DNA from: Actinomycetota bacterium
GTDB lineage: Bacteria > Actinomycetota > Acidimicrobiia > Acidimicrobiales > JAJPHE01
Length of the DNA stretch: 45,577 nt
Assembly (NCBI GenBank): GCA_027315345.1
Contig: DAHUYE010000075.1
Span: 1-45,577 of the forward strand
Direction: 5' to 3'
Positions within the stretch are counted from its first letter, which is position 1, and every line of letters begins with the position of its first letter. A model generated the notes under the pieces. The model was not told the DNA's origin. It saw nothing but the letters and a program-made list of their open reading frames with translations, and did not search any database. This document shows positions 5,128-41,502 of the stretch, one piece after another. The position numbers and the translations under genes were made by a program.

Positions 5128-5128
5128 C

Positions 5129-6120: not shown

Positions 6121-6143
6121 AGCCTCCCGCTAAGTTCGCTGTC

Positions 6144-6494
6144 ATGCCCAGTCAGCCGAGCCGCGAGTTGGTGGCCATCCCCAATCCGCACCCAGGCCGG
6201 GATTACGAGGTGCGCTGCGAGTCCCCGGAGTTCACCTGCGTCTGCCCGATGACCGGCCAGCCCGACTTCGCCAGCGTGCAGATCTCCTACATCCCGGGAC
6301 CTTCTATCGTGGAACTGAAGTCCCTCAAGCTCTACCTCTGGAGCTACCGCAACGAGGGCGCCTATCACGAAGATGTCACCAACCGAATCCTCGACGATCT
6401 GGTGGCGGCCCTGGCGCCGAGGCGGATCACGGTGCGTACCGACTGGTTGGTTCGGGGGGGAATCCACACCGTGGTGGAGGCCACCCACCCCTGA
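6144..6494 (+). CDS. queF: NADPH-dependent preQ0 reductase QueF
   Basis: QueF reduces the nitrile of preQ0 to the amine preQ1. ATG 6144 gives a 116-aa unimodular form; the frame is open upstream into queD but the homologous part starts here. The catalytic Cys is in CVCPMTGQPDFA, which also holds the conserved Asp. The QueF motif ELKSLKLYLWSYRNEGAYHE binds NADPH. It lies 23 nt after queD and ends the operon. queC, queE, queD and queF together supply preQ1; the tRNA-inserting enzymes (tgt, queA, queG) are not in the window. Confidence 0.94.
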   Translation: MPSQPSRELVAIPNPHPGRDYEVRCESPEFTCVCPMTGQPDFASVQISYIPGPSIVELKSLKLYLWSYRNEGAYHEDVTNRILDDLVAALAPRRITVRTDWLVRGGIHTVVEATHP

Positions 6495-14230: not shown

Positions 14231-14273
14231 GGCCCGCGGAGCGGAGCCGCCCTGCCCTACGTCTACCCTACGT
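14227..14273. promoter_or_regulatory. Hairpin and tandem 8-bp repeats upstream of RHH-cobI
   Basis: CCCTACGT occurs at 14255-14262 and 14266-14273, an 11-bp step, about one DNA turn. An inverted copy GTAGGGC at 14227-14233, which includes the cobB stop codon, pairs perfectly with GCCCTAC at 14254-14260. Inside that, GCGG (14236-14239) pairs with CCGC (14247-14250). The block ends 2 bp before the GTG start of the cobI fusion. It could be an RHH operator, an attenuating hairpin, or both. No U-tract follows, so a simple terminator is less likely. Confidence 0.5.
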
Positions 14274-14275
14274 GG

Positions 14276-15142
14276 GTGCGCAAGACCAGTGTCTACCTGC
14301 CGGAGGGGCTGAAGCGCTCGCTGGCCGAGGTGGCCGCCCGATCCGGGCTCTCCGAGGCCCAGGTCGTCCGCCTGGCCATAGAACGGGAGTTGGCCAGCTC
14401 CGACCGTGACCGCCGGCCCCCCGACCGGCCCGTGCCCGGGCGCCTGGTCGGGATCGGGGTCGGGCCGGGCGACCCTGGCCTGGTGACCATCTCCGCCTTG
14501 GCGGCCCTGCGCCGGGCCGACCGGGTGGTGGCGCCCTCGACCTCCGTCGATGCCGTTGGGCGGGCGGAGATGATCGTCCGCCAGGCGGCCCCCGACGTGG
14601 TGGTGGAGCGGCTGGTCTTCGAGATGGCCCCGGACCGGGCGGCCCGGGACGGGGCGGTCGTCCGAGCCGCCGAGCGGGTGGCCGCCTGCCTCCAGAGCGG
14701 GGAGGAGGTGGCCTTCATAACCCTGGGCGACCCACTCGTGTACTCCACCTTCGCCGGCGTGAGCCGGGCCGTTCGTGATCTGCGCCCCGGGACGGTGGTG
14801 GAGCACCAGCCCGGCATCATGGCCTTCCAGGCCCTGGCGGCGCGAACCGGGACCGTCCTGGCCGATGAGCGCCAGGCGATCCTGGTGCGCACCGCCCTCA
14901 GCCAGGACGACCTGGAGGCTGACCTGCACCGCCGGGACGTGACGCTGGTGGCCTACAAGGGCGGAAAGCGGCTGCCCGAGGTGGCGGCGGCGGTGGAGCG
15001 GGCCGGCCGCAGCCGCGCCGCGGTGGCCGGAGAGTTGTTGGGCATGGGGGGAGAGCGCCTCGGCGCCCTGGCCGAGATGTCGGCCGGCCCGGCTTCCTAC
15101 CTGGCCACCGTCATCGTCCCCGCCGAGGAGGACGGCCAGTGA
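14276..15142 (+). CDS. cobI: Ribbon-helix-helix domain fused to precorrin-2 C20-methyltransferase
   Basis: Residues about 57-288 are CobI/CbiL, which methylates C20 of (cobalt-)precorrin-2: GIGVGPGDPGLVT is the SAM-binding loop, and ITLGDPLVYSTF, QPGIMAFQALAA and LVAYKGGKR are family motifs. Residues 1-41 are a clean ribbon-helix-helix domain: strand RKTSVYLP, helix EGLKRSLAEVAARSG, then helix SEAQVVRLAIERELA. A linker SSDRDRRPPDRPVPG joins them. There is no stop or frame change between the parts. An internal GTG at 14432 could start a CobI-only form but has no Shine-Dalgarno sequence. GTG 14276 itself also lacks one. Normal CobI has about 230-250 aa and no DNA-binding domain. The next gene overlaps by 4 bp. 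The enzyme role is firm; DNA binding is inferred from the domain and the repeats just upstream. Confidence 0.9.
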   Translation: MRKTSVYLPEGLKRSLAEVAARSGLSEAQVVRLAIERELASSDRDRRPPDRPVPGRLVGIGVGPGDPGLVTISALAALRRADRVVAPSTSVDAVGRAEMIVRQAAPDVVVERLVFEMAPDRAARDGAVVRAAERVAACLQSGEEVAFITLGDPLVYSTFAGVSRAVRDLRPGTVVEHQPGIMAFQALAARTGTVLADERQAILVRTALSQDDLEADLHRRDVTLVAYKGGKRLPEVAAAVERAGRSRAAVAGELLGMGGERLGALAEMSAGPASYLATVIVPAEEDGQ

Positions 15143-15948
15143 TCAGCTTCGTGGGCGCCGGTCCGGGCGCGGAGGATCTCATCACCCTGAGGGGAGCCAA
15201 CCGCCTGGCCTCGGCGGCGGTGGTGGTCTGGGCGTCGTCGCTGGTGCCCGAAGCCGTGCTCGGACACTGCGGGCCGGGCGTGGAGGTACATGACTCGGCC
15301 ACCATGACCCTCGAGGACGTCGTAGCCGTCTACGCCTCCCAGCCCCCGGACACCCCCATCGTCCGCCTGCACTCGGGCGACCCATCCCTGTACGGCGCGC
15401 TTACCGAACAGATGGCGTGGTGTGACGCCAACGGCCGGGAGTGGGAGATCGTGCCTGGGGTGTCCTCCCTGGCGGCGGCGGCGGCCTCCGCCCGCAAGGA
15501 GTTGACGGTTCCGGCCCTGTCCCAGAGCGTCGTGATCACACGTCTGGCCGGGCGGACGGCCGCCTCCATGCCCGACGGGGAGGGGGTGGCCGCCTACGCC
15601 GCCCACGGCGGCACCCTGGCCGTCTTCCTCTCGGCGGCCCGGCCGGACGAGCTGCAGGCCGAGCTCCTGGGGCCCGACTCGGCCTTCCGGCAGGAGACGC
15701 CGGCGGTCATCGTGGTGCGGGCGAGTTGGCCTGACGAGCAGGTGGTTCCGACCACGGTGGGCCGGCTGGCCGAGACGCTGCGCTCCACCGGAGCCACCAT
15801 GACCACTCTGGTCCTGGTCGGTGAGTCACTGGCCGACGGGGCACCCCCGCGGCGGACCCATCTGTACGCCCCGGACTACACCACCGCCTATCGCCTGCGG
15901 TCATCCTCCGGTTCGACCCGCGGTCGTCCCTCGGCCCGGCGCCGATAG
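15139..15948 (+). CDS. cobM: (Cobalt-)precorrin-4 C11-methyltransferase CobM/CbiF
   Basis: CobM methylates C11 of precorrin-4 or cobalt-precorrin-4. The 269-aa protein opens with FVGAGPGAEDLITLRGA, the SAM-binding motif, and holds RLHSGDPSLYGALTEQM, VPGVSSLAAAAA and the C-terminal methyltransferase block PAVIVVRASWPDEQ. The GTG start overlaps the cobI stop (GTGA). The last 20 or so residues, after YTTAYR, are a Ser/Arg-rich extension of no obvious role. Confidence 0.93.
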   Translation: MISFVGAGPGAEDLITLRGANRLASAAVVVWASSLVPEAVLGHCGPGVEVHDSATMTLEDVVAVYASQPPDTPIVRLHSGDPSLYGALTEQMAWCDANGREWEIVPGVSSLAAAAASARKELTVPALSQSVVITRLAGRTAASMPDGEGVAAYAAHGGTLAVFLSAARPDELQAELLGPDSAFRQETPAVIVVRASWPDEQVVPTTVGRLAETLRSTGATMTTLVLVGESLADGAPPRRTHLYAPDYTTAYRLRSSSGSTRGRPSARRR

Positions 15949-15950
15949 AG

Positions 15951-17054
15951 ATGGGTGGCCCTCCCCCCCACGAGCCGCCCCTGGCTCCGGAGGTCGCCCG
16001 GGCCAAGGGCCTGCGCACGGGCTTCACCACCGGCGCCTGCTCGGCGGCGGCGTCCAAGGCGGCTGTGCTGTGGCTGACTACCGGCCAGATCCCGGCCCGG
16101 GTGGACATCGCCCTGCCGGCCGGGCGCCGGGTCGGCTTCGATGTCCTGATTGTCGATGCCACCAGAGGCATCTGCGCGGTGGTAAAGGACGCCGGGGACG
16201 ACCCCGATGTGACCCACGGGGCCCACCTGACGGCTCGGGCGGCCTGGGCCGAGGCGGGGGACCGGCCGGTGGTGCTGAGCGCGGGGGACGGTGTTGGTAC
16301 GGTCACCCTGCCCGGGCTGGGCATCCCGGTGGGAGAGCCGGCCATCACCGAGGTCCCCCGGGCGATGATCTCCGCCGCCGTGGCTGAGGTGACCGACCGA
16401 CCTGTTCGCATCGAGCTCTCGGTGCCCGGCGGTCAGGCCATGGCGGCCAAGACATCCAACGCCCGACTCGGCATCCAAGGTGGAATCTCCATACTCGGGA
16501 CCACCGGGATCGTAAGACCGTTCTCCACGGCCGCTTGGCGGGCCAGCGTCGTTCAGCAGGTCGATGTTGCCGCTGCCCAGGGCCAGGACCACATGGTCCT
16601 CTCCACCGGGGGCCGTACCGATGCCGCCGCCCAGCGTCTGTTTCCCGAACTGCCGGCCGTCTGCTTCGTCGAAGTCGGGGACTTCACCGGAATCGCTCTG
16701 CGCCGGGCCCGGCACCACGGCATGGAACAGGTCACCTTCGTCGGCATGGCGGGCAAGATCGCCAAGCTGGCCGCCGGTGTGCTGATGACCCACTACCGCC
16801 GTTCCAAAGTGGACGGGGACCTACTGGCCGAAGTCGCCCGAGCCACCGGGGCGCCGGCCGAGGTCATCGGGGCGGCCACGGCCACGGCCACGGCCCGTCA
16901 CTTCGCCGAAGTCTGCATGGCGGCGGGGGCGATGGCTCCGCTGGAGGAGTTGTGCCGGCGGGCGGGTGCGGCCTGTGCTCAATACGCCGAGGGGCTGGCC
17001 GTGCAGGTGATCATGGTGGACTTCGAGGGCGCCGAGGTGCTGGCCCGTGGCTGA
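15951..17054 (+). CDS. cbiD: Cobalt-precorrin-5B C1-methyltransferase CbiD
   Basis: CbiD methylates C1 in the oxygen-independent pathway and is a marker of that route. The 367-aa protein has LRTGFTTGACSAAASKAA near the N-terminus, VVKDAGDDPDVTHG, INPR-like AITEVPRAMI, the GGISILGTTGIVRP block and FVGMAGKIAKLAAG. The start ATG 15951 lies 2 bp after the cobM stop. The 3' end overlaps cobL by 8 bp. Confidence 0.94.
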   Translation: MGGPPPHEPPLAPEVARAKGLRTGFTTGACSAAASKAAVLWLTTGQIPARVDIALPAGRRVGFDVLIVDATRGICAVVKDAGDDPDVTHGAHLTARAAWAEAGDRPVVLSAGDGVGTVTLPGLGIPVGEPAITEVPRAMISAAVAEVTDRPVRIELSVPGGQAMAAKTSNARLGIQGGISILGTTGIVRPFSTAAWRASVVQQVDVAAAQGQDHMVLSTGGRTDAAAQRLFPELPAVCFVEVGDFTGIALRRARHHGMEQVTFVGMAGKIAKLAAGVLMTHYRRSKVDGDLLAEVARATGAPAEVIGAATATATARHFAEVCMAAGAMAPLEELCRRAGAACAQYAEGLAVQVIMVDFEGAEVLARG

Positions 17055-18258
17055 CCCGAGGATCGACGTGGTCGGACTCCACGGCGGTGAGCCCTGGGGT
17101 CATGGGGCCATGACGGCTCTGGCCGACGCCCAGATCGTGGCCGGCTCCGCCCGCCATCTGGCCCAGGTCCGTGTTCGGCTGGGTCCCGGGGCGGAGGAGG
17201 TCACTCTGTCGGGGCCACTCCCGGCCTTCCTGGACGAGCTGGACACCCTTAGTCGGGAGGGCCGGCGGGTCTGCCTGCTCGCATCCGGGGACCCGGGCTT
17301 CTTCGGGATCGCCCACCTGGCGGCGGCCCGGCTCGGGGCGGCCCGCCTGCGCGTGCATCCGGCCCCCAGTTCGGTTTCCCTCGCCTTTTCCCGGGTGGCG
17401 GAGCGGTGGGATGACGCCGTGGTCGTTTCCGCCCATGGCCGGCCTCTGGACCTGGCCGTCTCCACGGCGCTGGCCAACCCCAAGGTGGCCGTTCTCACCG
17501 CTCCGGACCAACCCCCCGAAGCCCTGGGCCGGGCCCTGCGCCAGAACGGCATCGGTCCACGCCGCGTGGTGGTGGCCAGCCGGCTGGGCGAGGCGGATGA
17601 GAGGGTGGTCCACTGTGACGTTGACGGACTGGCCCAGGGGCAGTTCGACGGCCTGTCGGTGGTGCTGCTCCTGAGTCCCGAACGAGGTGACCACCAGGGG
17701 GCGGGTCTGCGCTGGGGAAGGGAGGAGGCCGCCTTCCAGCACCGGGCCGGGATGATCACCAAGGGGGAGGTCAGGGCTGTCGCCCTGGGAAAACTGGGTC
17801 TGCCCGCCACCGGCACCCTCTGGGATGTAGGGGCCGGGTCGGGCTCCGTGGCCGTGGAGGCGGCCCGCATCTCTCCGGCCCTTTCCGTTCTGGCCGTGGA
17901 GCGCCGCGCTGACGACGCAGCCCGCATACGAGCCAACGCGGCCGGGCTGAGCGTGACCGTGGTGGAGGGGGAGGCCCCGGCGGCGCTGGTGGACCTGCCC
18001 GATCCCGACCGGGTCTTTGTCGGCGGCGGTGGACTCTTCGTCCTCGACGCCGTTCTGGACCGGCTTCGTCCCGGTGGCACCGTGGTGGCGACCTGGGCAT
18101 CTCTGGACCGGGCGGTGGCGGCGGCGGAGCGGTTGGGGAATCTGGTTCAGGTGGCGGTGAGCCGGGGTGTCCGATTCGGTGAGGACGACGCCTTGCGCCT
18201 GGCGGCGGAGAATCCGGTGTTCATCACCTGGGGTCCCACCGACCGGGAGGCCCGGTGA
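17047..18258 (+). CDS. cobL: Precorrin-6B C5,15-methyltransferase (decarboxylating), CbiE-CbiT fusion
   Basis: This 403-aa protein joins the CbiE C5-methyltransferase (about residues 1-205; LASGDPGFFGIA, VHPAPSSVSLAF) to the CbiT C15-methyltransferase and decarboxylase (about 235-403; ITKGEVRAVALGKLGL, the SAM motif DVGAGSGSVAVEAAR near 259, and FVGGGG). This is the CobL arrangement. GTG 17047 lies inside the cbiD 3' end. The downstream start overlaps by 4 bp. Confidence 0.93.
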   Translation: MADPRIDVVGLHGGEPWGHGAMTALADAQIVAGSARHLAQVRVRLGPGAEEVTLSGPLPAFLDELDTLSREGRRVCLLASGDPGFFGIAHLAAARLGAARLRVHPAPSSVSLAFSRVAERWDDAVVVSAHGRPLDLAVSTALANPKVAVLTAPDQPPEALGRALRQNGIGPRRVVVASRLGEADERVVHCDVDGLAQGQFDGLSVVLLLSPERGDHQGAGLRWGREEAAFQHRAGMITKGEVRAVALGKLGLPATGTLWDVGAGSGSVAVEAARISPALSVLAVERRADDAARIRANAAGLSVTVVEGEAPAALVDLPDPDRVFVGGGGLFVLDAVLDRLRPGGTVVATWASLDRAVAAAERLGNLVQVAVSRGVRFGEDDALRLAAENPVFITWGPTDREAR

Positions 18259-19961
18259 GAGTGCTGTGCTGCTCGGTGACCGAGCGGGGGGCGGCGTTGG
18301 CGCGGCGGCTCCCCTTCGAGCACCGTCACGGCGCCCTGGTGGCCACGGTACGGGAGGGGTGGGGTCGGTACGACGCCTTCGTGCTCATCTGCGCCACCGG
18401 AGTGGCCGTCCGGGCCGCGGCCCCCATGCTGGTTGACAAGGCCACCGACCCGGCCGTGGTCTGCCTGGATGACACGGCTCGCTGGGCCGTCGCCCTGACC
18501 GGGGGTCACGCCGGGGGGGCCAACCGGCTGGCGCGGGAGCTGGCGGCCCTGACCGGCGCCGAGGCCGTAGTAACCACGGCCAGTGACGAGGCCGGCCTCC
18601 CAGCGCTGGATGCCCTGGAAGGGGTCAAAGCAGAGGGCGACGTGACCGGAGTGATGCGGCGCTGGCTGGACGGCCAGGCGCCCCGGCTGCTCACTGACCC
18701 CGAGTTGGCGGCCTGGCCCCTCCCGCCGGCTCTGGCTCGGTTGGCCGGTCCCGACCGTTGGTCAGGCTCGGACGAGGGACTCGAACCCCCTCGTGTGCGC
18801 CTGACCGATCGGGACAGCGAAGCCGAAGAGGGTGAGGTGCTCCTGCATCCCCCGTCCCTGGTCATCGGAGTGGGGACCAGCCGCGGTGCTTCGGTCCCCG
18901 GTCTACGCCAGCTGGTCGAGAATGTTCTGCGGGGGGCCGGGCTGCACCCGGCGGCAGTGGGGCGGGTGGTGACCCACGAGTTGAAAGTGTCCGAGCCGGC
19001 CATCACCGAACTCGCCCGGGGGTTCGGCGTGCCACTCGGCGTCTTCCCCGCTGCCGAGCTGGCCGCGGTGGCGGTGCCCAACCCCAACCCGGTGGTCCAG
19101 GCTGCCGTCGGCACTCCGTCGGTGGCCGAGGCGGCCGCCCTGCTGGGAGCGGGTCCCGGGGGCGAGCTGGTGGTGGCGAAGCAGAAAAGCGCCGATTCCA
19201 CCGTGGCCGTCGCCCGTCGCCACCTTCCCATCGGCGCCCTGGCGGTGGTGGGCCTCGGACCGGGGGACGCGGCCTGGCGGACCCAAGCCGCGGCCGCGGC
19301 CGTGCGCTCCGCGGCGGTGGTCATCGGTTACGGCCCCTACGTGGACCTGGCGGCCGACCTGTTGTCCTCCTCCCAGGAGGTCCTGCGCTACCCGATCGGA
19401 GAGGAGGCGGAGCGTTGTGCCGAAGCTCTCCGGCGGGCCGCCGGGGGTCAGCGGGTGGCGCTGGTCTGTTCAGGCGATCCCGGGGTGTACGCCATGGCCG
19501 GCCTCGTACTGGAGATGGCGCCGCAATTCGGTGACCCTCCGGTGCGGATTGAACCCGGTGTGACCGCAGCCCTGAGCGCGGCCGGCGTGCTGGGGGCGCC
19601 TTTGGGCCATGACCACGCCGCCATTTCCCTCTCCGATCTGCTTACCCCTTGGCCGGTCATCCGTCGACGGTTGGAGGCGGCCCGAGATGGCGACTTCGTG
19701 GTCTCCCTCTACAACCCGCGCTCCCGGCGGAGGACCACGCAGCTGGTGGAGGCCATGACCATCCTGTCCGGCCAGCGTCTACCGGACACCCCCGTGGCGG
19801 TGGTGACTAATGCCGGCCGCCCAACCCAGAAGGTGGTCAGGACCACTCTGGCCGCCCTGGATCCCGGCGTGGTCGACATGGTCTCGATGGTGATCGTGGG
19901 CTCCTCCACCACCCGCTGGATCGGTACCCGGATGGTCACCCCGCGGGGTTACAACCCGTGA
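18255..19961 (+). CDS. CbiG-CobJ fusion: cobalt-precorrin-5A hydrolase and precorrin-3B C17-methyltransferase
   Basis: Residues about 1-325 are CbiG, which opens the delta-lactone of cobalt-precorrin-5A in the anaerobic route (FVLICATGVAVRAAAP, ALTGGHAGGANRLA, VIGVGTSRGA, FFPAAEL-like FPAAELAAV). Residues about 328-568 are CobJ/CbiH, the ring-contraction C17-methyltransferase (VVGLGPGDAAWRT, CSGDPGVYAMAG, EPGVTAALSAAG, SLYNPRSRRR). The 568-aa length matches the sum of the two. Such fusions are known and would channel neighbouring steps. The GTG start overlaps the cobL stop (GTGA). Confidence 0.92.
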   Translation: MRVLCCSVTERGAALARRLPFEHRHGALVATVREGWGRYDAFVLICATGVAVRAAAPMLVDKATDPAVVCLDDTARWAVALTGGHAGGANRLARELAALTGAEAVVTTASDEAGLPALDALEGVKAEGDVTGVMRRWLDGQAPRLLTDPELAAWPLPPALARLAGPDRWSGSDEGLEPPRVRLTDRDSEAEEGEVLLHPPSLVIGVGTSRGASVPGLRQLVENVLRGAGLHPAAVGRVVTHELKVSEPAITELARGFGVPLGVFPAAELAAVAVPNPNPVVQAAVGTPSVAEAAALLGAGPGGELVVAKQKSADSTVAVARRHLPIGALAVVGLGPGDAAWRTQAAAAAVRSAAVVIGYGPYVDLAADLLSSSQEVLRYPIGEEAERCAEALRRAAGGQRVALVCSGDPGVYAMAGLVLEMAPQFGDPPVRIEPGVTAALSAAGVLGAPLGHDHAAISLSDLLTPWPVIRRRLEAARDGDFVVSLYNPRSRRRTTQLVEAMTILSGQRLPDTPVAVVTNAGRPTQKVVRTTLAALDPGVVDMVSMVIVGSSTTRWIGTRMVTPRGYNP

Positions 19962-20764
19962 GCGTCCTGATCACCCGGCGCTGCACGGCCTGTGGTTCCT
20001 GCATCATCACCTGCCCCGAGTCTGCGCTCACCTCGGCCCCCCTGATGCCGGCCGTCGACCCTGATCGCTGTACGGATTGTCTTGCCTGCCTGGAGGTCTG
20101 CCCCGTGGATGCCATACAACCGTCGGCCCACCCGATCCACCCCATCGAGGTCGAGAGCTACCGGATCATGAATTCCGAGGTGGACTTCTCATCCTGGCCG
20201 GCCGGCCAACGGGAGGTGGTGGCCCGCATGGTCCACGCCACGGCCGATGACAGCTTCGCCTCCTCGGCCCGGATCGGTTCTGAGGCGGTGGAGGGCGCCA
20301 TATCGGCCCTCCGATCGGGTGCGCCGGTCATCTGCGACGCCCGAATGGTGATGGCGGGCATCCCTTCGGTGCCAACCGCCCGCTGTTATCTCGACCAGGT
20401 GGAAAGATCGCCGGAGGCAGGGACCCGCTCGGCCGCGGCGATGACTGCGGCGGCGGCGGACCATCCCGACGGTGCCGTGTGGGTGATCGGCAACGCCCCC
20501 ACTGCCCTGATGGCTCTGATCGAACTTCATCCCCGGATCCGCCCGGCCGCCATTATCGGACTGCCGGTCGGATACGTAGGTGCCGCCGCGGCCAAAGTCG
20601 ATCTCTGGGCGGGCCCGTGGCGCGAGCTCGCCATCACCAACGTGGGCCGGAAGGGAGGCAGTGCCGTAGCCGCCGCCGCCGTCAATGCTCTGGTGCGCAT
20701 GGCCGTCGACGGGGAGTGGGGGAGCGACGGTGGGACCGGCCCAGGCCGCAGGGTGGGCAAGTGA
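19958..20764 (+). CDS. 2[4Fe-4S] ferredoxin fused to precorrin-8X methylmutase (CbiC/CobH)
   Basis: Residues about 1-55 are a bacterial ferredoxin with two cluster motifs, CTACGSCIITCP and CTDCLACLEVCP. Residues about 65-268 are precorrin-8X methylmutase, which moves the C11 methyl group to C12 to make (hydrogeno)cobyrinate. The catalytic His is in VARMVHATADD, with DARMVMAGI and VIGNAPTAL as further family blocks and GLPVGYVGAAAAK near the end. The mutase reaction needs no electrons, so the ferredoxin part probably serves another step, such as ring contraction or a reduction. The GTG start overlaps the cbiG-cobJ stop. Confidence 0.9.
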   Translation: MSVLITRRCTACGSCIITCPESALTSAPLMPAVDPDRCTDCLACLEVCPVDAIQPSAHPIHPIEVESYRIMNSEVDFSSWPAGQREVVARMVHATADDSFASSARIGSEAVEGAISALRSGAPVICDARMVMAGIPSVPTARCYLDQVERSPEAGTRSAAAMTAAAADHPDGAVWVIGNAPTALMALIELHPRIRPAAIIGLPVGYVGAAAAKVDLWAGPWRELAITNVGRKGGSAVAAAAVNALVRMAVDGEWGSDGGTGPGRRVGK

Positions 20765-32578: not shown

Positions 32579-33298
32579 GTGACGGGGCGGACCGAATCAC
32601 CAGCCCGGTCCCGGGCCGCGGTCAGTCGGCCCCCGGCGCCGGTGGGCCGGCCCCCGGCGGCCGAGCGGGACTCCCGGCGCCAGGCCCGGGTGGAGGTGCT
32701 CCTGGACGCGGCCGAATCGGCGGTGCGGGACCGGGGCGAGACGGTGACCATGGCCGAGATGGCGGCCCGGGCCGGGGTGACCAAGCCGGTGCTGTACCGC
32801 TACTTCGGCCACCGCTTCGGGCTCTACCAGGCCCTGGCCGTGCGCTACGCCACCGGACTGTTGGGCGAGTTGCGCCAGGCCATGGCCCAGCGCCCGGCCG
32901 GCCGGGCCACCCTGGAGGAGGGCATCGATGCCTACTTCCGTTACACCGAGGCCAATGCCCATCTCTATCGCTTCCTGGCCACCCGCCTGCCCAGCGGGGA
33001 CCCGGCCGGCCAGGAGCTGGTTTCGGGGTTCCTGACCGGCATGGCCGAGGAGGTGAGCCGCATTCTGGGCGAATCGTTGGCCGTGGCCGGCCTGGAGGCC
33101 CGGGCCACCCGGCTGTTCGGCTACGCCATCACCGGTTCGGTGCAGATGGGAGCCGAAGCCTGGATCAACGAGCAGGGCCGGATGGAGAGGAGCGAGGCGG
33201 TGGCCAGCCTCACCGATCTGGTCTGGTTCGGGCTCATCGGGACATTGACCCACCGGGGGCGGGCCGCTCCCGGAGAGAAACCGGAGGAGAAGCATTGA
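32579..33298 (+). CDS. TetR-family transcriptional regulator
   Basis: The 239-aa protein starts at GTG 32579. After a Pro/Arg-rich leader of about 35 residues the TetR HTH occupies about residues 37-83 (LLDAAESAVRDRGETVTMAEMAARAGVTKPVLYRYFGHRFGLYQAL). The C-terminal ligand domain is helical, with W and F residues (DLVWFGLIGTL) as in regulators of lipid or steroid metabolism. It overlaps the P450 gene by 4 bp, which suggests control of its own operon. Confidence 0.88.
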   Translation: MTGRTESPARSRAAVSRPPAPVGRPPAAERDSRRQARVEVLLDAAESAVRDRGETVTMAEMAARAGVTKPVLYRYFGHRFGLYQALAVRYATGLLGELRQAMAQRPAGRATLEEGIDAYFRYTEANAHLYRFLATRLPSGDPAGQELVSGFLTGMAEEVSRILGESLAVAGLEARATRLFGYAITGSVQMGAEAWINEQGRMERSEAVASLTDLVWFGLIGTLTHRGRAAPGEKPEEKH

Positions 33299-34527
33299 GC
33301 ACCCAGGCCAACCGGTCGGTGGCGGCGCTGGACCTGGGATTCGATCCCGCCGATCCGGCCTTCCGGCGCGATCCCTATCCGATTTATGACCGCATCCGGG
33401 CCTCGGCGTCGATCCCCGACGCCGAGGGTTCCTGGTTCCTCTCCCGCCACGCCGACGTGATGGTCGCCCTGCGCGACGCCAAGCTGTCCAGCAATCCCGC
33501 CCACCGCCGGGAGGAGGAGCGGATGAGCCTGAGCAGCATCCCGTTCCTGTCCGACGGCACCCTCCAGCTGATGCTGCTGGCCGATCCCCCCGACCACACC
33601 CGCCTGCGCCGCCTGGCCAACCGGGCCTTCACCCCCCGGGCGGTGGAAGGGCTGCGGCCCCGGGTGGGGGAACTGGTGGACGGGCTGTTGGACCGGGCCG
33701 TGGAGGCCGGGCCGCAGATCGATGTGATGTCCGCTCTGGCCGAGCCTCTGCCGGTCATGGTCATCTGTGACCTGCTGGGAGTGCCGGCCGGGGACTGGGA
33801 CCAGTTCAAGCCGTGGTCCACGGCCATCGCCCGGGTCCTCGACCGGGCGGCCGGACCGGACGCCATGAACGAGGCCCTGCCGGCCGTGATCGGCTTCGTC
33901 CAGTACTTCGCCGCTCTGGTGGAGGAGCGCCGGGCCCAACCCGCCGATGATCTGCTCAGCCGGCTCATAGCCGCCGAGGAAGAGGGCGACAGCCTCTCTC
34001 GGGGCGAGCTGTTCGCCATGATCATCCTGCTGTTCGTGGCCGGGCACGAGACGACCACCAACCTGATCGGCAACGGCACCCTGGCTCTGCTGCGCCATCC
34101 CGACCAGATGGCGGCCTGGCGGCGGGACCCGGGTCTGGCTGGGCCGGCGGTGGAGGAGCTCCTGCGCTACGACGCCCCCGTCCAGGTCACCGCCCGCACC
34201 GCCACCGCCACCACCGAGATCAACAATCTGGTGTTGCAGCCGGGGGACTCGGTGGTCTGCGGTCTGGCCGCCGCCAACCGGGACCCGGACTACACCGAGG
34301 ACCCGGGGACGCTGCTCCTGAAGCGGGGAGTAGCCGGCCACGCCGCCTTCGGCCACGGCATGCACCACTGCCTGGGGGCACCCCTGGCCCGGCTGGAGGG
34401 TCAGGAGGCGCTGGGCCGGCTGGTGGCGCGCTTCCCCGGGCTCACCCTGGCCCAGGACGACCCTCCCTATCGGGACCACTTCGTGTTGAGGGGCCTGGCC
34501 GCCCTGCCGGTCAGCCTGGCTCGCTGA
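33295..34527 (+). CDS. Cytochrome P450
   Basis: This 410-aa soluble bacterial P450 inserts oxygen into a hydrophobic substrate. The TTG start at 33295 overlaps the TetR stop and has GGAGGAG just upstream. The I-helix motif AGHETTTN is near residue 248, the K-helix ExxR is in VEELLRYDAPVQ, and the heme-binding FGHGMHHCLG has its Cys near residue 358. The N-terminal block DPADPAFRRDPYPIYDRIR is the usual opening of class I enzymes. A ferredoxin and reductase are not adjacent. Confidence 0.95.
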   Translation: MSTQANRSVAALDLGFDPADPAFRRDPYPIYDRIRASASIPDAEGSWFLSRHADVMVALRDAKLSSNPAHRREEERMSLSSIPFLSDGTLQLMLLADPPDHTRLRRLANRAFTPRAVEGLRPRVGELVDGLLDRAVEAGPQIDVMSALAEPLPVMVICDLLGVPAGDWDQFKPWSTAIARVLDRAAGPDAMNEALPAVIGFVQYFAALVEERRAQPADDLLSRLIAAEEEGDSLSRGELFAMIILLFVAGHETTTNLIGNGTLALLRHPDQMAAWRRDPGLAGPAVEELLRYDAPVQVTARTATATTEINNLVLQPGDSVVCGLAAANRDPDYTEDPGTLLLKRGVAGHAAFGHGMHHCLGAPLARLEGQEALGRLVARFPGLTLAQDDPPYRDHFVLRGLAALPVSLAR

Positions 34528-35795
34528 TGGCGCCCCGGGATGAGGAGAGTTGGCGTCTGCCCGGCTCGCCCAACAGCCGGCGGGCGGCCATCTACGGGAC
34601 GGCGGCCCGGGTGGCGGCCCGGTACGGAGCGGGCCAGCTGCCGGCGTCGGTGCGGCCCGGCCTGGACTGGGCCCATGAGGCCGGGGCCAGGGACATCTAC
34701 CGCACGGCCGTGAAGCTGCGGGGTGGCTTTTTGAAGTTCGGCCAGTTCGTCTCGGCTCGGCCCGACCTGTTGCCGGAGCCCTACATCCGGGAACTGTCCA
34801 AGCTGCAGGACCGGGTGCCGCCCGCTCCCATCGCCGCCGTGCGCCGGGTGGTGGAAAGGGAGTTGGGCCCAACCGGGGAGATCTTCAACCACTTCGACCC
34901 GGCCGCCTCGGCCGCCTCCCTGGCCCAGGTGCATCGGGCCGAGCTTCGGGACGGCCGGACGGTGGCGGTCAAGGTGCAGTACCCGGGGGTGGCCGAGATC
35001 GTCCCCCGGGAGACCGCCGATACCCGCCGCCTGCTCGGCCTGTTGGACCGGGTGGTGAAGGGCTTGGATCTGTCCACCATCGCCCGGGAGTTGGAGCGGG
35101 TCATCCTGTCCGAACTCGACTACGCCAATGAGGCAGACAACATCGAGCGGTTCGGGGCCAATTTCGCCGGGGAGGATGGGATCGAGGTGCCCGTCGTCCA
35201 TCGGCACCTGTCCGGGCCGCGGGTCCTGGTCATGGACTGGGTCGAGGGCCGCAACCTGGGCCACGCCCTGCGGGACTCCGATCGGGAGACCTGTGAGGAG
35301 GCCCTGCGCCTGCTGGTCGACGCCTTCCTCAAGCAGATCCTGGTGGACGGGTTCGTCCATGCCGATCCGCATCCGGGCAACTTCCTGCTCCAGCCCGGTC
35401 CCCGCCTCGGCATCGTCGATTTCGGCGCCTGTGTGGCCCTGTCCGATCCGACCCGGCTGGCCCTGTGCGAGTTGTACGCCGCCGGGGTGGAGGGCGACAT
35501 CCACCGGTCGGTCGGCGCCCTGGACGCCCTCGGGTTCAAGACCCGCTCCGGGGACCTGTCCTCCCTGGTGGCCTGGGCCAGCCTGTTCGACTCCGGCGCC
35601 ACCGAGGACGACCGGGAGGCCGCCTGGGCCCGGCTCATGGAGGCGGCCCGGAGCGACCCGCTGGTGAGCCTGCCCGAGGAGTTGATCATGGTGGGCCGGG
35701 TGGTCATGGTCCAGACCGGCATGGTCGCCAACCTGAAGCCGTCCTGGTCCATGCCGGACCTGATCGCCAACCGGTTGGCCCAGGCCACATGTTGA
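34527..35795 (+). CDS. ABC1/AarF/UbiB-family atypical kinase
   Basis: The 422-aa protein starts in a TGATG overlap with the P450 stop. Family motifs are KFGQFVSARPDLLPEPY (KxGQ), the Ala-rich loop AASAASLAQVHRAEL, VAVKVQYPG, HADPHPGNF and DFGA. UbiB-like kinases support lipid or quinone metabolism, though direct substrates are rarely known. Co-transcription with a P450 and a transporter suggests a role with lipid-like substrates. It overlaps the transporter gene by 7 bp. Confidence 0.9.
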   Translation: MAPRDEESWRLPGSPNSRRAAIYGTAARVAARYGAGQLPASVRPGLDWAHEAGARDIYRTAVKLRGGFLKFGQFVSARPDLLPEPYIRELSKLQDRVPPAPIAAVRRVVERELGPTGEIFNHFDPAASAASLAQVHRAELRDGRTVAVKVQYPGVAEIVPRETADTRRLLGLLDRVVKGLDLSTIARELERVILSELDYANEADNIERFGANFAGEDGIEVPVVHRHLSGPRVLVMDWVEGRNLGHALRDSDRETCEEALRLLVDAFLKQILVDGFVHADPHPGNFLLQPGPRLGIVDFGACVALSDPTRLALCELYAAGVEGDIHRSVGALDALGFKTRSGDLSSLVAWASLFDSGATEDDREAAWARLMEAARSDPLVSLPEELIMVGRVVMVQTGMVANLKPSWSMPDLIANRLAQATC

Positions 35796-38700
35796 GCCTG
35801 GCCCGCCGCCTCCCGGCCCCGGTGGCCTGGGGGCTGGGCGCCATCGGCCTGATGGCCGGCTGGGCCGTGGCCGGCGCCCTCCTGCCCAACGGGCTGCCCT
35901 TCGGGGTGGTGCTGCTCGGCCTGGTGTTGGGCGGGTTGTCCGCCCTGACGGCCATGGGCCTGGTGATCGTCTACCGCTCGGCCCGCATCATCAACTTCGC
36001 CCAGGCCGAGATCGGCGGGCTGTCGGCGGCGGTGGCAGTGGTGATGGTGACCGGGTCGCACCTGCCGTACTTTGCCGCTCTGCCGGTCGGGCTGGTCGTG
36101 GCCCTGCTGACCGGACTGGTGGTGGATCTGTCGGTCATGCGCCGGCTCTTCTCCGCCCCCCGCCTCATCGTCACGGTGGCCACCATCGGGGTGGCGCAGA
36201 TCCTGGGCGCCGTGGAACTGGTGGTGCCCGAGCTGTTCAGCCACCTGGGCCCGACCACCACCTTCACCACCCCGTTCGGCTTCCACTTCGACGTGGGCCC
36301 CATCGTCTTCAACGGGAACCACATCGTGGCCATGGTCGTCATCCCGGTGGTGCTCACGGCCCTGGCCTGGTTCTTCACCCGCACTGACTTCGGCATCGCC
36401 ATCCGGGGCGCGGCCGACTCCACCGAACGGGCCCAGCTGCTCGGCATCCCGGTCCTGCGCCTGTCCAGCCTGACCTGGATGCTGGCCGCCGGCCTGTCCG
36501 GGATCGGGGCGATGCTGTCCGGCCCCATCCTCGGTCCTCAGCTGGGCGCCCTGGCCGGCCCGGAGGCGTTGCTGGCCCCGTTGGCCGCGGCCGTCATCGC
36601 CCGGATGGAGAGCCTGACCACCGCCGTGGTGGCGTCCCTGGTGATCGGCATCTTCGAACAGGCCGTGTTCTGGTCCTATCCCCGGGCCACCACCGTGGAC
36701 GTGGCCCTGTTCCTGGTCGTGCTCATCGCCCTGTTGCTGCAGCGGCGCCGGCTCAGCCGCACCGACGACGCCGGCCTGGGCAGTTACGTGGCCCAGCGCG
36801 AGACCCGTCCCATCCCCACCCTCCTGCGCCGCCTGCCCGAGGTCCGCATCGGCCGGGTCGTTCTCATGACCGCCATGGCGGCGGTGGTCGTCCTGGTTCC
36901 CTTGGGCATGTCCGACTCCCAGCGGACGCTGATCGCCTACATGGCCATCTACGGGATCATCGCCGTATCCCTGGTGGTACTGACGGGCTGGTCGGGCCAG
37001 ATCAGCCTGGGCCAGTTCGCCTTTGTGGGCCTGGGGGCGGGGACGACGGCGTCGCTGTTCGTGAACGCCCATGCCGACCTCTTCTTCGGGCTGGCCGCCT
37101 CGGTCCTGATCGGCGCCTTGGCCGCCGTCATCGTGGGAGTGCCGGCCCTGCGGGTGCAGGGCCTGTTCCTGGCCGTGGTGACCCTGGCCTTTGCCGTGCC
37201 GGCCAACGACTTCTTTCTGGACTCGACCTATTTCCCCTGGTTCACCCCCAGCCAGCTCAACCGCCCGGCCCTGCTCAGCCGCTTCGACCTCAACTCGGCC
37301 GGGACCTTCTATTACTTCTGCCTGTTGGTGCTGGCGGCGGTGGTGCTGCTGGCCTGGAACTACCGCCGCAGCCGGCCGGGCCGGGCGGCCCTGTCGGTGC
37401 GGGACAACGCCCGGGGGGCGGCCAGCTTCGGCATCAGTCCCAACCGGACCCGGCTGGTGGCCTTCGCCCTGTCCGGGGCCCTGGCCGGCCTGGCCGGGGG
37501 TCTCTACGTCATCGGCCTGCGGGGCGTGGGCTTCGGGGGTTACCCGGCCGAGACCAGCCTGCAGGTCTTCACCATGGTGGTCATCGGTGGACTGGGCAGC
37601 CTGACCGGGGGACTGGTGGGCGCCGTCTATGTGCAGGGGGTCACCTACTTCCTGTCCGGCGCCGCCCAGTTGCTGGCCACCGGGGCCGGCATCCTGCTGG
37701 TGGTCCTGATCCTGCCCGGGGGCCTGGCTGCGGTCGTCTACTGGTTCCGGGACCGGGGCCTGCGGCTCATCGCCGCCCGGCGGGGCCTGTCCGTGCCCAG
37801 CCTGGCCGAACGGGCCGCCTTCACCGAAGACGAGGCTGACGGGTCGGCACCGGCCCGGGCCGGCCGGTCGGGGCCGGCCGGCGGGGACGACGCGGCTCAC
37901 CCCGGGGCGGACGGCGCCGTGTTGGTGTTGCGCGACGTGGACGCCGCCTACGGACAGGTCCAGGTGCTCTTCGGGGTCAACCTGGCCGTGCGCCGGGGTG
38001 AGGTCCTCGGCCTTCTCGGGACCAATGGCTCGGGCAAGTCCACCTCCCTGAAGGTGGCCTCCGGGCTGCTGGGGGCCAAGGCGGGGAGGGTCATCTTCGA
38101 GGGTGACGACGTGACCGGGCTGGATCCGGTGGCCCGGGTCAAGCGGGGCCTGGCCATGGTGCCCAGCGGCCGGGGCGTCTTTCCCTCCCTGACCGTGGCC
38201 GAGAACCTGCGCCTGGGGGGCTGGCTGGCCCGGCGCCAACCGGAGTTCCTGGCCGCCACCACCGAACGCATCCTCGGACTGTTCCCGGCCCTGCAGAGTC
38301 GGATGGGGACCCTGGCCGGCTCACTGTCGGGCGGGGAGCAGCAGATGCTCACCATCGCCCAGGCCCTCTACAGCCGGCCCAGGCTGCTCATGATCGATGA
38401 GCTGTCCCTGGGCCTGGCCCCCACCGTGGTCAGCGAGTTGCTGCGGGTGGTGCGGGAGCTGGCCGAGTCGGGCGTGACGGTGGTGGTGGTGGAGCAGTCC
38501 CTCAACCTGGCCGTGTCCATCACCGACCGGGCCGTGTTCATGGAGCGGGGCCAGGTCCGCTTCAGCGGCGCCACCGCCGAGCTGTCGCAACGCCCGGACC
38601 TGGTGCGTTCGGTGTTCCTCGGTGGCCCGGCGGCGGCCGGAGGAGGACCCGCCGCGTCCCGGGCCGATGGCCGGCCGCCGGTCGGGCGTTCCAACCGCAC

Positions 38701-39709
38701 CGCCGCCGACGGAAGACGGGACGGCGCCGAGGAGGCTCCGGTCGTCTTTTCCGTTCTGGACGTCCACCGGCGTTTCGGCGGGGTGGCCGCCCTGGACGGG
38801 GTGGACCTGGCCGCCCACCAGGGCGAGATCCTCGGCATCATCGGCGCCAACGGGGCCGGTAAGACAACCCTGTTCGACATCTGCTCGGGCTTCCTGGCCC
38901 CCAGCTCGGGTCGCATTCAACTCTCGGGGGCGGACATCACCGACCTGCCGGCCGAGGACAGGGCGATCCTGGGCCTGGGTCGGGTCTTCCAGGACGCCCG
39001 GCTGTTCCCGTCCCTGACCGTGACCGAGACGCTGGCCGTGGCCCACGAGCGTCATCTGGATGTCCGCGACCCCTTCCTCAGCCTGATGCGCACCGAGGCG
39101 GTGCGGCGTTCGGAGAAGGCCACCGCCGATTCGGTGGAGGAACTGGTCGAGCGGTTGGGCCTGGGCCGCTACCGGGACGCCTTCATATCCGAACTGTCCA
39201 CCGGCACCCGCCGGGTGGTGGAACTCGGCTGCCTGCTGGCCCATCAACCCGAGGTCGTCCTCCTGGACGAGCCCACTTCCGGCATCGCCCAGCGGGAAAG
39301 CGAAGCCCTGGGCGCGCTGCTGGTCGACCTGCGGGCCCAGACCGGGGCCACATTCATCATCATCGAGCACGACGTTCCGCTGGTGTCGTCCATATCCGAC
39401 CGGCTGGTGTGCCTGCACCTGGGCCGGGTGCTCTCCGAGGGTATGCCGTCGGCCGTGCTGGCCGATCCGCTGGTGATCGAGGCCTACCTGGGTGCCGACG
39501 CCGTGGCCGCCAGCCGCTCCGGAGCGTCGGCGGCGCCCAAGCCGCCGGCGCCCAAGCGGGGGGCTCCCAAGCGGCCGGCCCGGCGCCGGAGCCCGACCAC
39601 GACCACCACCGCCACCACCACTACCACCACCACCACCGATCGAGTGACCCGACGTCCGAAACCGGCCGCCACCGTCAAGGCCGTAGCCCAGCAGGGGGGA
39701 AAGAAATGA
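35789..39709 (+). CDS. Single-chain branched-chain amino acid-type ABC transporter, LivH-LivM-LivF-LivG fusion
   Basis: ATG 35789 (MLSLARRLPAPVAW) lies inside the UbiB gene end; the frame is open further back, but the protein starts naturally here. The 1306-aa chain holds all four core parts of a HAAT-family importer: LivH-like permease (about residues 1-330; VIVYRSARIINFAQAEIGGL), LivM-like permease (about 355-655; GWSGQISLGQFAFVGLGA, SVRDNARGAASFGI), LivF-like ATPase (about 705-945; Walker A GTNGSGKST, signature LSGGEQQ, Walker B LLMIDEL) and LivG-like ATPase (about 985-1237; GANGAGKTT, VVLLDEP). In the LivG part the signature reads LSTGTRR rather than LSGGQ. The tail of about 65 residues is Pro/Lys/Ala-rich with a poly-Thr run. 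The binding-protein gene overlaps by 4 bp. Usually these parts are separate genes; substrate not predictable. Confidence 0.9.
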   Translation: MLSLARRLPAPVAWGLGAIGLMAGWAVAGALLPNGLPFGVVLLGLVLGGLSALTAMGLVIVYRSARIINFAQAEIGGLSAAVAVVMVTGSHLPYFAALPVGLVVALLTGLVVDLSVMRRLFSAPRLIVTVATIGVAQILGAVELVVPELFSHLGPTTTFTTPFGFHFDVGPIVFNGNHIVAMVVIPVVLTALAWFFTRTDFGIAIRGAADSTERAQLLGIPVLRLSSLTWMLAAGLSGIGAMLSGPILGPQLGALAGPEALLAPLAAAVIARMESLTTAVVASLVIGIFEQAVFWSYPRATTVDVALFLVVLIALLLQRRRLSRTDDAGLGSYVAQRETRPIPTLLRRLPEVRIGRVVLMTAMAAVVVLVPLGMSDSQRTLIAYMAIYGIIAVSLVVLTGWSGQISLGQFAFVGLGAGTTASLFVNAHADLFFGLAASVLIGALAAVIVGVPALRVQGLFLAVVTLAFAVPANDFFLDSTYFPWFTPSQLNRPALLSRFDLNSAGTFYYFCLLVLAAVVLLAWNYRRSRPGRAALSVRDNARGAASFGISPNRTRLVAFALSGALAGLAGGLYVIGLRGVGFGGYPAETSLQVFTMVVIGGLGSLTGGLVGAVYVQGVTYFLSGAAQLLATGAGILLVVLILPGGLAAVVYWFRDRGLRLIAARRGLSVPSLAERAAFTEDEADGSAPARAGRSGPAGGDDAAHPGADGAVLVLRDVDAAYGQVQVLFGVNLAVRRGEVLGLLGTNGSGKSTSLKVASGLLGAKAGRVIFEGDDVTGLDPVARVKRGLAMVPSGRGVFPSLTVAENLRLGGWLARRQPEFLAATTERILGLFPALQSRMGTLAGSLSGGEQQMLTIAQALYSRPRLLMIDELSLGLAPTVVSELLRVVRELAESGVTVVVVEQSLNLAVSITDRAVFMERGQVRFSGATAELSQRPDLVRSVFLGGPAAAGGGPAASRADGRPPVGRSNRTAADGRRDGAEEAPVVFSVLDVHRRFGGVAALDGVDLAAHQGEILGIIGANGAGKTTLFDICSGFLAPSSGRIQLSGADITDLPAEDRAILGLGRVFQDARLFPSLTVTETLAVAHERHLDVRDPFLSLMRTEAVRRSEKATADSVEELVERLGLGRYRDAFISELSTGTRRVVELGCLLAHQPEVVLLDEPTSGIAQRESEALGALLVDLRAQTGATFIIIEHDVPLVSSISDRLVCLHLGRVLSEGMPSAVLADPLVIEAYLGADAVAASRSGASAAPKPPAPKRGAPKRPARRRSPTTTTTATTTTTTTTDRVTRRPKPAATVKAVAQQGGKK
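39596..39637 (+). repeat. ACC-codon tract encoding poly-Thr
   Basis: Fourteen consecutive codons, mostly ACC, encode 13 Thr and one Ala in the cytoplasmic tail of the transporter fusion. The tract is a short imperfect trinucleotide repeat and could vary in length without a frameshift. Confidence 0.8.
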
Positions 39710-41502
39710 GCATGGACCGAAGTCAGATGTCCCAGGACGAGTTCGAGACCATGTTGCGGCGCTGGCTACTCAAGATGGGGGCCCGGTATGTCCCGGTGCT
39801 GGCCGCCATCCTGGCCATCGCCCTGCTCCTAGTGTTCGTGCCCACCACCCAGCCGTTCAGCAACTCGGGGCTGGCCACGGGCACCAGCGCAAACGGGACG
39901 GGCTCCTCGGCCTCGGCCGGTAACTCGGGACCGGCGGCTTCGGCCTCGTCCGGCTCGACGGCCGGAGCCGGGGCGGGACAGTCCGGTTCGGCCTCGGGAT
40001 CGACCGGCAGCACCGGCGCCGGCGCCGTGTCCGGGGGAGGGGGCACGGCGGTGGCCGCCACCGGCTCCGGGGGTGCCGTCGGCGGCGGGGACGTGGCCAA
40101 GACCGGAGTGCGCTGCACCAACGGCGCCCGCCAGTTCGCCTGGTCCGACTTCGCTCCCAACTGCGTGCCGGCCTTCACCGGTAACAACGGGGGAGCCACC
40201 GGCCAGGGCGTCACTCCTTCCACCATCACCCTCACCTACCGGCTGGCCAACTCCTCCCAGCAGTCGGCCGTCAATGCCCTGGCCGGTTCGGCCAACATCA
40301 ACCAGACCGATCTGGTGGCCGACATGCAGACCTACGTCAACTACTTCAACACCCAGTTCGAGTTGTACGGACGCAAGGTGGTGCTCAAGACCTATCAGGG
40401 CCAGGGCGACTACTTGGAGGAGGACCAGGGCCAGAACCTCGGCGCCACCCAGGCCGACGCCGTCACCGCCCACGACATGGGCGCCTTCGGGGATGTCACC
40501 TTCGCCCTGGAGGCGTCCGAACCCTACGAGCAGGACCTGGCCCAGGAGCATGTGGTCAGCTTCTCCTCGGTGGGGATGCCCCAGTCCTTCTACCAGCAGT
40601 ACGCCCCCTACGAGTACTCGGTGGAAGGCCCGAGCGGAACGGTCGGACTGCAGGAAGCCTCGGCGGTGATCTGCGACCGGCTGGCGGGCATGCCGGCCAT
40701 CTATGCCGGGGATGTCACCTACCAACACGAGAACCGGAAGTTCGGGATCATCTACCCCCAGACGCCGTACTACCAGCAGGAGGTGGACACGGCCGAGGCC
40801 GGTCTGGCTGCCTGCGGGGTCAAGCCGGCCAAGGTGATCGGTTATTCGATCAACGTCTCGGAGTACGAGCAGGAGGCGGTGTCGTCCATGGCCGAGATGA
40901 AAGCGGCCGGGGTCACGACCCTGCTGTGCGCCTGTGATCCCATCTACCCGATCCTGTTGACCCAAGCCGCGTCACAGCAAAACTGGAATCCGGAATGGTT
41001 CGCCATCTCCTACGGAGATCCGGTGTCGCGTGACTATCAGCAGTCGGAGTGGGCCCACAGCGTGGCCGGGGGTGTGCAGTTCCCGGTGCCGTCAACGACC
41101 CAGGCCTACCAGGCCTATCAACGGGCCAACCCGGGCCACCAGCCGGCCGAGACGCCGCCGTCCTCACCGCCCTACTACTACGTGGCCTACTACGAGCTGA
41201 TGGAGGTCTTCGCCGGTCTGCAGGCGGCCGGGCCCGACCTGACCGCAGCCAGCTTCGAGCGAGGGGAGTTCAACCTGCCCCCGTCCATACCCGGGGACCC
41301 GGTGGGGGGACGCTGGATATACGGCCAGAACGTCTTCGACCCGGTCAGTTCCTTTTCCCTGGTGTGGTGGGACCCCAATGCGCTGAGCAAGTTCGACAAC
41401 ACCAAGGGCGCCTATCAGTGGTGCAATGGGGGTCAGGTCTACCTGGACAGTGACCTGTCCGCCCTGGGTTCCCACCAGCAGCTGCACTGCTTTGGCCACT
41501 GA
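39706..41502 (+). CDS. Membrane-anchored periplasmic binding protein-like subunit of the ABC importer
   Basis: The 598-aa protein starts at ATG 39706, in an ATGA overlap with the transporter fusion and after GGGGGAAAG. A single hydrophobic segment (about residues 28-46, VPVLAAILAIALLLVFV) lacks a signal-peptidase site or lipobox and probably anchors it. About 80 residues of Gly/Ser/Ala-rich linker follow, then a type 1 periplasmic binding domain (about 130-598; GVTPSTITLTYRLA, FGIIYPQTPYYQQEVDTAEAGLAACG, VTTLLCACDPIYPILLTQAASQQNW). Cysteine pairs (CTNG ... NCVP; WCNGG ... LHCFGH) may form disulfides. It should bring the substrate to the fused importer. Confidence 0.88.
   Translation: MSMDRSQMSQDEFETMLRRWLLKMGARYVPVLAAILAIALLLVFVPTTQPFSNSGLATGTSANGTGSSASAGNSGPAASASSGSTAGAGAGQSGSASGSTGSTGAGAVSGGGGTAVAATGSGGAVGGGDVAKTGVRCTNGARQFAWSDFAPNCVPAFTGNNGGATGQGVTPSTITLTYRLANSSQQSAVNALAGSANINQTDLVADMQTYVNYFNTQFELYGRKVVLKTYQGQGDYLEEDQGQNLGATQADAVTAHDMGAFGDVTFALEASEPYEQDLAQEHVVSFSSVGMPQSFYQQYAPYEYSVEGPSGTVGLQEASAVICDRLAGMPAIYAGDVTYQHENRKFGIIYPQTPYYQQEVDTAEAGLAACGVKPAKVIGYSINVSEYEQEAVSSMAEMKAAGVTTLLCACDPIYPILLTQAASQQNWNPEWFAISYGDPVSRDYQQSEWAHSVAGGVQFPVPSTTQAYQAYQRANPGHQPAETPPSSPPYYYVAYYELMEVFAGLQAAGPDLTAASFERGEFNLPPSIPGDPVGGRWIYGQNVFDPVSSFSLVWWDPNALSKFDNTKGAYQWCNGGQVYLDSDLSALGSHQQLHCFGH

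Follow-up and report, generated by a model that had tools for sequence, protein, structure and literature searches.

The 45,577-nucleotide stretch analysed here (the window; contig DAHUYE010000075.1 of GenBank assembly GCA_027315345.1, from a member of the Acidimicrobiales in the phylum Actinomycetota) carries on its plus strand a gene (35789..39709) that encodes two permease domains and two ATP-binding cassette (ABC) ATPase domains of the Liv type as one chain of 1306 amino acids plus stop, followed by the gene of a predicted membrane-anchored substrate-binding protein. The frame opens with an ATG at 35789, closes with a TGA at 39707-39709 and holds 1306 codons with zero internal stops. Pfam recognizes in it two stretches of BPD_transp_2 (PF02653; E 1.9e-57, 194.9 bits against a cut-off of 26.8) and two of ABC_tran (PF00005; E 3e-57). 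The LivH-type permease domain H (residues ~11-335, 35819..36793) contains the first PF02653 stretch and is best matched by the NCBIfam models UrtB/LivH, and the LivM-type permease domain M (residues ~351-690, 36839..37858), with PF02653 at residues 381-642, by UrtC/LivM. They are followed by the LivF-type ATPase domain F (residues ~705-950, 37901..38638; best models UrtE/LivF), with the Walker A motif GTNGSGKST, the signature LSGGEQQ, and the switch EQS, and by the LivG-type ATPase domain G (residues ~983-1245, 38735..39523; best models LivG/UrtD), with the Walker A motif GANGAGKTT, the signature LSTGTRR, the switch EHD, and a BCA_ABC_TP_C match at residues 1213-1238. A low-complexity tail of ~60 residues, rich in Pro, Thr, Lys, and Arg (39524..39706), ends the translated product. 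As the domain-wise best models follow one another in this way, the order H-M-F-G holds, and the initial annotation of this DNA, which had read four importer parts in that order from one 1306-residue frame, is confirmed. The fixed 1:1:1:1 ratio of the four domains that it also put forward would follow from the covalent nature of the chain.

An AlphaFold2 model of chain residues 33-1232 reached a predicted template modelling (TM) score of 0.77 and a mean predicted local distance difference test score (pLDDT) of 81, with values below 50 only in the three inter-domain linkers (290-305, 642-674, and 912-949 in model numbering). In the PDB, its best fold matches include 1ji0 and 1gaj, which are single ATPases, and tandem ATPases from peptide importers of mycobacteria. 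A search of viral structures with the same model gave weak matches only, mostly ABC ATPases, and none of use.

The binding-protein gene (39706..41502, plus strand; 598 amino acids plus stop) overlaps the chain gene by 4 nt (ATGA). A hydropathy scan and comparison with relatives place a putative N-terminal anchor helix at residues ~29-45 (39790..39840), and the translation and the start of the conserved core at about residue 133 delimit a Gly/Ser/Ala-rich linker of ~85 residues (39850..40101). No lipobox Cys follows the signal helix in this protein, the first Cys being residue 137, and the helix-tethered binding protein with a long linker that had been described initially is thus borne out. While no Pfam or NCBIfam model matches the protein, its AlphaFold2 model (pLDDT 92.3) points to a familiar fold. 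The core aligns with LivK TM1135 in VIA-align at Z 25.0 (root-mean-square deviation 3.8, 341 residues aligned); the closest folds are this LivK and the aromatic-acid binding proteins of R. palustris (Z 24-25), and leucine, urea, and amide binding proteins are matched as well, with Z between 22 and 25 overall. The predicted fold is that of a Liv-type binding protein, and it does not choose the ligand.

The tether itself turned out not to be special to this system. Binding proteins were surveyed across related loci, and many of these proteins neighbor split transporters; a lipobox-like motif at the N-terminal helix was missing in 41 of the 43 that could be assessed, which makes the putative N-terminal anchor a habit of the lineage. 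The survey comprised 45 rows, from which one duplicate (L016/L036) and the masked L131 were removed; proteins whose matched part starts within 45 residues of the frame start were omitted, and start codons were taken as predicted. A lipobox-like Cys occurs in L095 and L119, and four of the 41 others (L040, L118, L122, and L128) have a Cys within 30 residues of the helix start, outside the lipobox pattern. The residues R-Y-x-P stand immediately before the helix in 20 of the 43. The subfamily shares the motifs NGGAT..GVT and CDPI.PIFLT (alignment over window positions 40084-41499), and a distant member, L086, matches Peripla_BP_6, unlike the window copy. Two further binding proteins in the same genome (L091:5780-7540, +; L092:5603-7345, -) are 47-48% identical to that of the window.

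Single-frame chains with the order H-M-F-G are a recurrent feature of this lineage rather than a singular oddity. Ninety distinct genomes were searched with the window chain as query, in batches of 3, 25, 38, and 24 with E limits of 1e-3, 1e-100, 1e-180, and 1e-150, and in the last three batches the best 16-24 candidates were scored per genome. Together with a scan of named genomes by a few short peptide patterns, which returned 17 loci including one four-part chain (L041, in the metagenome-assembled genome FK2.bin2, 'Actinomycetes bacterium'), this led to 18 distinct chains, from 11 of the 90 genomes and the named one. Genome G005 holds four, G000, G001, and G058 two each, and G002, G003, G010, G015, G021, G022, and G042 one each; these counts are lower bounds, since the chain of G010 was recognized only once its stretch was inspected. 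A six-frame search of the window's own genome and of two members of its family found full-length relatives that are 71% (G002) and 62% and 49% (G001) identical to the window chain, as well as C95, a further copy in the own genome, at 62%; another genome holds a 66% identical one. Such chains are present in nine of 36 genomes from the same order and in two of 30 from elsewhere in the class; in other classes of the phylum, this homology search found none in 24 genomes. Among 72,556 plasmid records, three match the chain at E 1e-60, none of them across more than 80% of its length. The rarity that had been assumed for a four-part chain is therefore not supported, given 18 chains in more than one clade. 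Our reading of the open-licence literature found no description of the architecture, which is weak evidence, as database annotations and subscription papers were outside its scope.

The catalytic residues of both ATPase domains, i.e., the Walker A Lys, the Walker B Asp-Glu, and the switch residues (EQS in F and EHD in G), are invariant in all 18 aligned chains. In the window chain, the Walker B Glu is E871 in F and E1161 in G. Domain F has Gln as its switch residue and the signature LSGGEQ in 17 of the 18 chains and LSGGQQ in the other. Domain G combines a His switch with an LSTGT-like signature, which reads LSTGTRR in 14 of 18. Taken together, the domain content, the homology, and the predicted folds indicate that the chain is very probably a binding-protein-dependent importer of the Liv type (HAAT, LivKHMGF-like) whose four subunits have become one polypeptide. 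In such an importer, the N-terminal helix and the long flexible linker would hold the binding protein at the outer face of the cytoplasmic membrane, where it would capture a small organic solute and dock on the H-M permease pair, and F and G would close on ATP beneath H-M to drive the transport cycle. The canonical ATP site would be composed of the F signature (LSGGEQ) and the Walker motifs and His switch of G, and a weaker site of the altered G signature (LSTGT) and the Gln switch of F. With one canonical and one weaker composite site, ATP hydrolysis is probably asymmetric, judging from the general architecture of ABC proteins. The fusion could plausibly help four unlike subunits to pair correctly where about twenty related permease pairs share one cell.

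The system is best understood as a variant of a known importer. It shares with LivKHMGF/HAAT (E. coli LivHMGF) two unlike permease types, two unlike ATPase types, and the Liv-type fold of the binding protein, but here the four subunits form one chain in the order H-M-F-G, the binding protein is anchored by a helix and unmatched by Pfam or NCBIfam, and every domain lies far under the named equivalog cut-offs (40 against 379 bits for LivH, 61.6 against 366 for LivM, 193 against 441 for LivF, and 209.1 against 362 for LivG). The urea importer UrtABCDE is also close, as UrtB, UrtC, and UrtE are the top NCBIfam models for H, M, and F. However, an identity as Urt was rejected, since none of the UrtB, UrtC, UrtD, and UrtE models passes its cut-off on a single domain (60.2 against 250.3, 78.6 against 296.2, 191.3 against 304.1, and 207 against 285.8 bits, respectively). 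The single chain is a further difference. The whole-chain scores of UrtE (311.4) and LptB (268.8 against 240) do exceed the cut-offs, but only because two ATPase stretches are summed. Among the best PDB fold matches, the DppD/OppD tandem ATPases of M. tuberculosis (8wdb, 8j5q) align across the ATPase pair; these are peptide-importer subunits with separate permeases. Exporter-fold ABC proteins such as P-glycoprotein, with the domain order transmembrane-nucleotide-binding-transmembrane-nucleotide-binding, likewise unite four domains in a chain of comparable length, but the whole-chain TM score is only ~0.3. RbsA and NupO of B. subtilis are also tandem ATPases, with both domains in a single polypeptide and one of the two sites degenerate, although there the ATPase pair is separate from the permeases; such tandem-ATPase fusion is described as relatively rare in prokaryotes (PMC11466899).

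The split Liv systems of the lineage are built from the same modules. Pairing the 41 PF02653 matches of the window's own genome by position and open-frame length gave 20 permease pairs and a fragment, with 16 pairs in one frame and four in two. The eight split systems of this genome that are closest to the chain likewise have F and G in a single protein, and in seven of them a major facilitator superfamily (MFS) carrier domain precedes F; in more distant systems of the genome, F and G occur in separate matches. Across the lineage, these systems combine a binding protein and a permease protein with MFS-F-G, a binding protein and a permease protein with a free FG pair, or HM-G with F. H and M are usually fused, as in the chain, and the F and G domains are ~48-58% identical to those of the window; the systems differ from it in that F-G is joined to an MFS carrier or free, or G alone is joined to HM. 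In a set of 57 FG modules gathered by similarity, which is no census, 18 belong to four-part chains, 29 follow an MFS domain, and 10 are placed otherwise.

In the same genome, the MFS-F-G proteins lie at L088:6979-10017 (-), L090:3639-6797 (-), L094:7127-10264 (+), L095:7610-10624 (+), and L089:5241-9380 (+), with the MFS domain N-terminal to a tandem LivF-LivG and a length of 1005-1053 amino acids in the four with clear starts. Pfam finds MFS_1 and two ABC_tran domains in all five MFS-F-G proteins scanned. Their genes adjoin HM permease and binding-protein genes, and in four loci of this genome (L088, L090, L094, and L095) the HM gene shares 4 nt with the MFS-F-G gene. Such fusions are also encoded by further genomes of the order and, in other classes, by G071, G085, and G099; a search of plasmid records gave no match. 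No paper on them was found in the open-licence literature, which again is weak evidence, and the fusion is possibly more unusual than the four-part chain. Other combinations include HM-G with a separate F and MFS-F beside HM-G, e.g., the three-part H-M-G chains at L138:2270-6316 (+) and L145:3475-6333 (+), which lie beside an MFS-F protein.

Phylogenetic analysis indicates that the four-part state arose, or was lost, several times. Maximum-likelihood trees of the FG part (56 rows, one Sporosarcina module having been dropped beforehand) and of the HM part (46 rows) each require six changes of the four-part state, of which starred branches force three in the FG tree and four in the HM tree. A single clade of four-part chains is rejected by the approximately unbiased test (p 9.4e-6 for HM and 1.4e-4 for FG). 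These are quick trees in which L041 and L008 form long branches. A tree with outgroups shows five changes of the four-part label, three of them forced by starred branches, and leaves the base open, the outgroup branches being long. In both the FG and the HM tree, the window chain falls within a group of eight four-part chains with support of 100, a second group unites L079, L082, L083, and L084, and a third contains L085, L086, L087, and L096 with the split relatives L018 or L074; L097 and L098 are placed among MFS-F-G and HM systems. Among the chains, the H-M linker is nearly constant (31-36 residues), which fits HM as the older join, and the M-F (39-109) and F-G (22-106) linkers vary. The M-F junction retains a tail motif, RD..LR..A.RRG..VPSL, that many split HM proteins also show close to their C-termini. 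The linker lengths and the shared motif both fit the joining of ready-made HM and FG units, and the chain would be most simply explained as an already fused HM gene joined to an already fused FG pair. Among the genomes sampled, the median number of PF02653 matches is 29 in the seven that have a four-part chain and 18 in the remaining 19 (Mann-Whitney p 0.099), so that more Liv permeases accompany four-part chains as a trend only.

The chain gene is preceded on the plus strand by an ABC1 (UbiB-like) kinase gene (34527..35795; PF03109, E 1.1e-64), which overlaps the chain start by 7 nt, and by a cytochrome P450 gene of uncertain start (33247..34527; PF00067, E 2.3e-21), which overlaps the kinase gene by 1 nt. 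With overlaps of 1, 7, and 4 nt between successive genes, the P450, the kinase, the chain, and the binding protein are probably encoded in one operon here. These neighbors, together with an oxygenase of the flavin-containing monooxygenase (FMO) type, had led to the proposal of a lipid-derived substrate, i.e., an importer of lipid- or terpenoid-related compounds wired to the adjacent enzymes. The best NCBIfam matches of the P450 and the FMO are pentalenolactone enzymes, far under the cut-offs, and the fold matches include a binding protein named for fatty acids, 4n03 (TMq 0.60, Z 23.2). However, in stretches of 6-19 kb around the 17 other four-part loci, a P450 homologue occurs in two and an ABC1-kinase homologue in one, and homologues of the window's thioesterase, CMD, FMO, and both TetR genes occur in none. 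The 71% identical copy in G002 is flanked instead by genes for TetR, an alcohol dehydrogenase, a hydrolase, and a flavin-dependent (FAD) enzyme, and leucine and aromatic-acid binders equal or exceed 4n03 in fold score. We therefore regard a lipid substrate as unlikely and take an organic acid or amino acid, from the fold and the family, as the default. A steroid context in the form of an Mce locus at 12854-20764, suggested by gene sizes, was discarded, as Pfam shows cobalamin synthesis there. This plus-strand run (CbiA/CobQ-type, TP_methylases, CbiD, CbiG, and CbiC) includes a TP_methylase fused to CbiG and a CbiC with a 4Fe-4S ferredoxin-type domain, and QueC/QueF-type genes lie at 4417-6494. 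The Rhodococcus transporter of cholate metabolites, CamABCD with the MFS carrier CamM (PMC8399759), is a functional parallel, and no argument here depends on it.

Other explanations of the chain itself concern its integrity and its role. The genome is a draft of 106 contigs, and a lost stop or a frameshift could have joined separate genes in assembly or sequencing. This is barely credible in view of the 17 further single-frame chains, including the 71% and 66% identical ones in other genomes, and of a third-position guanine-plus-cytosine content of 0.84-0.97 throughout the frame, steady over the domain joins; both observations contradict the stop or frameshift between domains that would have undone the initial annotation. 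The frames of L013, L087, L096, L097, and L098 are open across all four domains, and the stops that the search flagged in some chains arise because the match overruns the end of the frame. The long, variable M-F and F-G linkers, modelled with very low confidence, would also suit a chain that is translated whole and then cleaved in its disordered parts into HM and FG, or into four pieces, to work as an ordinary multi-subunit importer. With no direct evidence for cleavage, sites for which were not searched for, this is rather improbable. Still less credit is due to a sensor or regulator built from importer parts that no longer imports. A GGDEF diguanylate-cyclase gene does follow the chain of L077 (L077:8636-10153, +), another GGDEF gene adjoins the binding-protein gene of L081 (L081:13317-15560, -), and upstream in the window there is a gene for an EAL response regulator, but the catalytic ATPase residues are kept in every aligned chain, and a binding-protein homologue is present in the inspected stretch of 14 of the 17 other loci (~5 kb away in L078 and as a cut piece in L041).

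Several points nevertheless weigh against a single-chain Liv importer selected for insulation. Each domain alone stays under the curated cut-off of every named Liv or Urt model in NCBIfam, and the permease counts given above (29 against 18, p 0.099) argue only weakly for an insulating benefit. The chain could be cut after translation; the tree pattern may reflect separate fissions rather than separate fusions; and the deviant motifs may be of long standing among Liv ATPases, with E. coli LivF and LivG as possible examples, and nothing special here. The sister chain C95 has no binding protein within ~5 kb, and neither has its nearest relative, L077, in a contig of 14.7 kb, so the pairing of chain and binding protein is not universal. 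The proteins of L091 and L092, around which no H-M match was found in 13 kb, are possible partners of C95.

Beyond the single-chain importer, a broader and rather doubtful idea is that the LivF-LivG pair is an exchangeable covalent power module. Placed on H-M, it would give an insulated importer; placed on an MFS carrier, it would give an ATPase-MFS hybrid acting with or instead of H-M, and fusion would be selected since about twenty related systems must not mix. The MFS-LivF-LivG fusions raise the question of whether ATPases can be linked to an MFS carrier. If the chain is indeed a single-chain importer, its 1:1:1:1 ratio would be fixed, and each ATP site and permease half could be mutated separately within a single gene, a task that four-gene Liv systems make cumbersome; the asymmetry of the Liv ATP sites could thereby be tested directly. 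That the fusion state changed repeatedly in a lineage with many related systems would also offer a natural test of whether fusion stops paralogous mixing.

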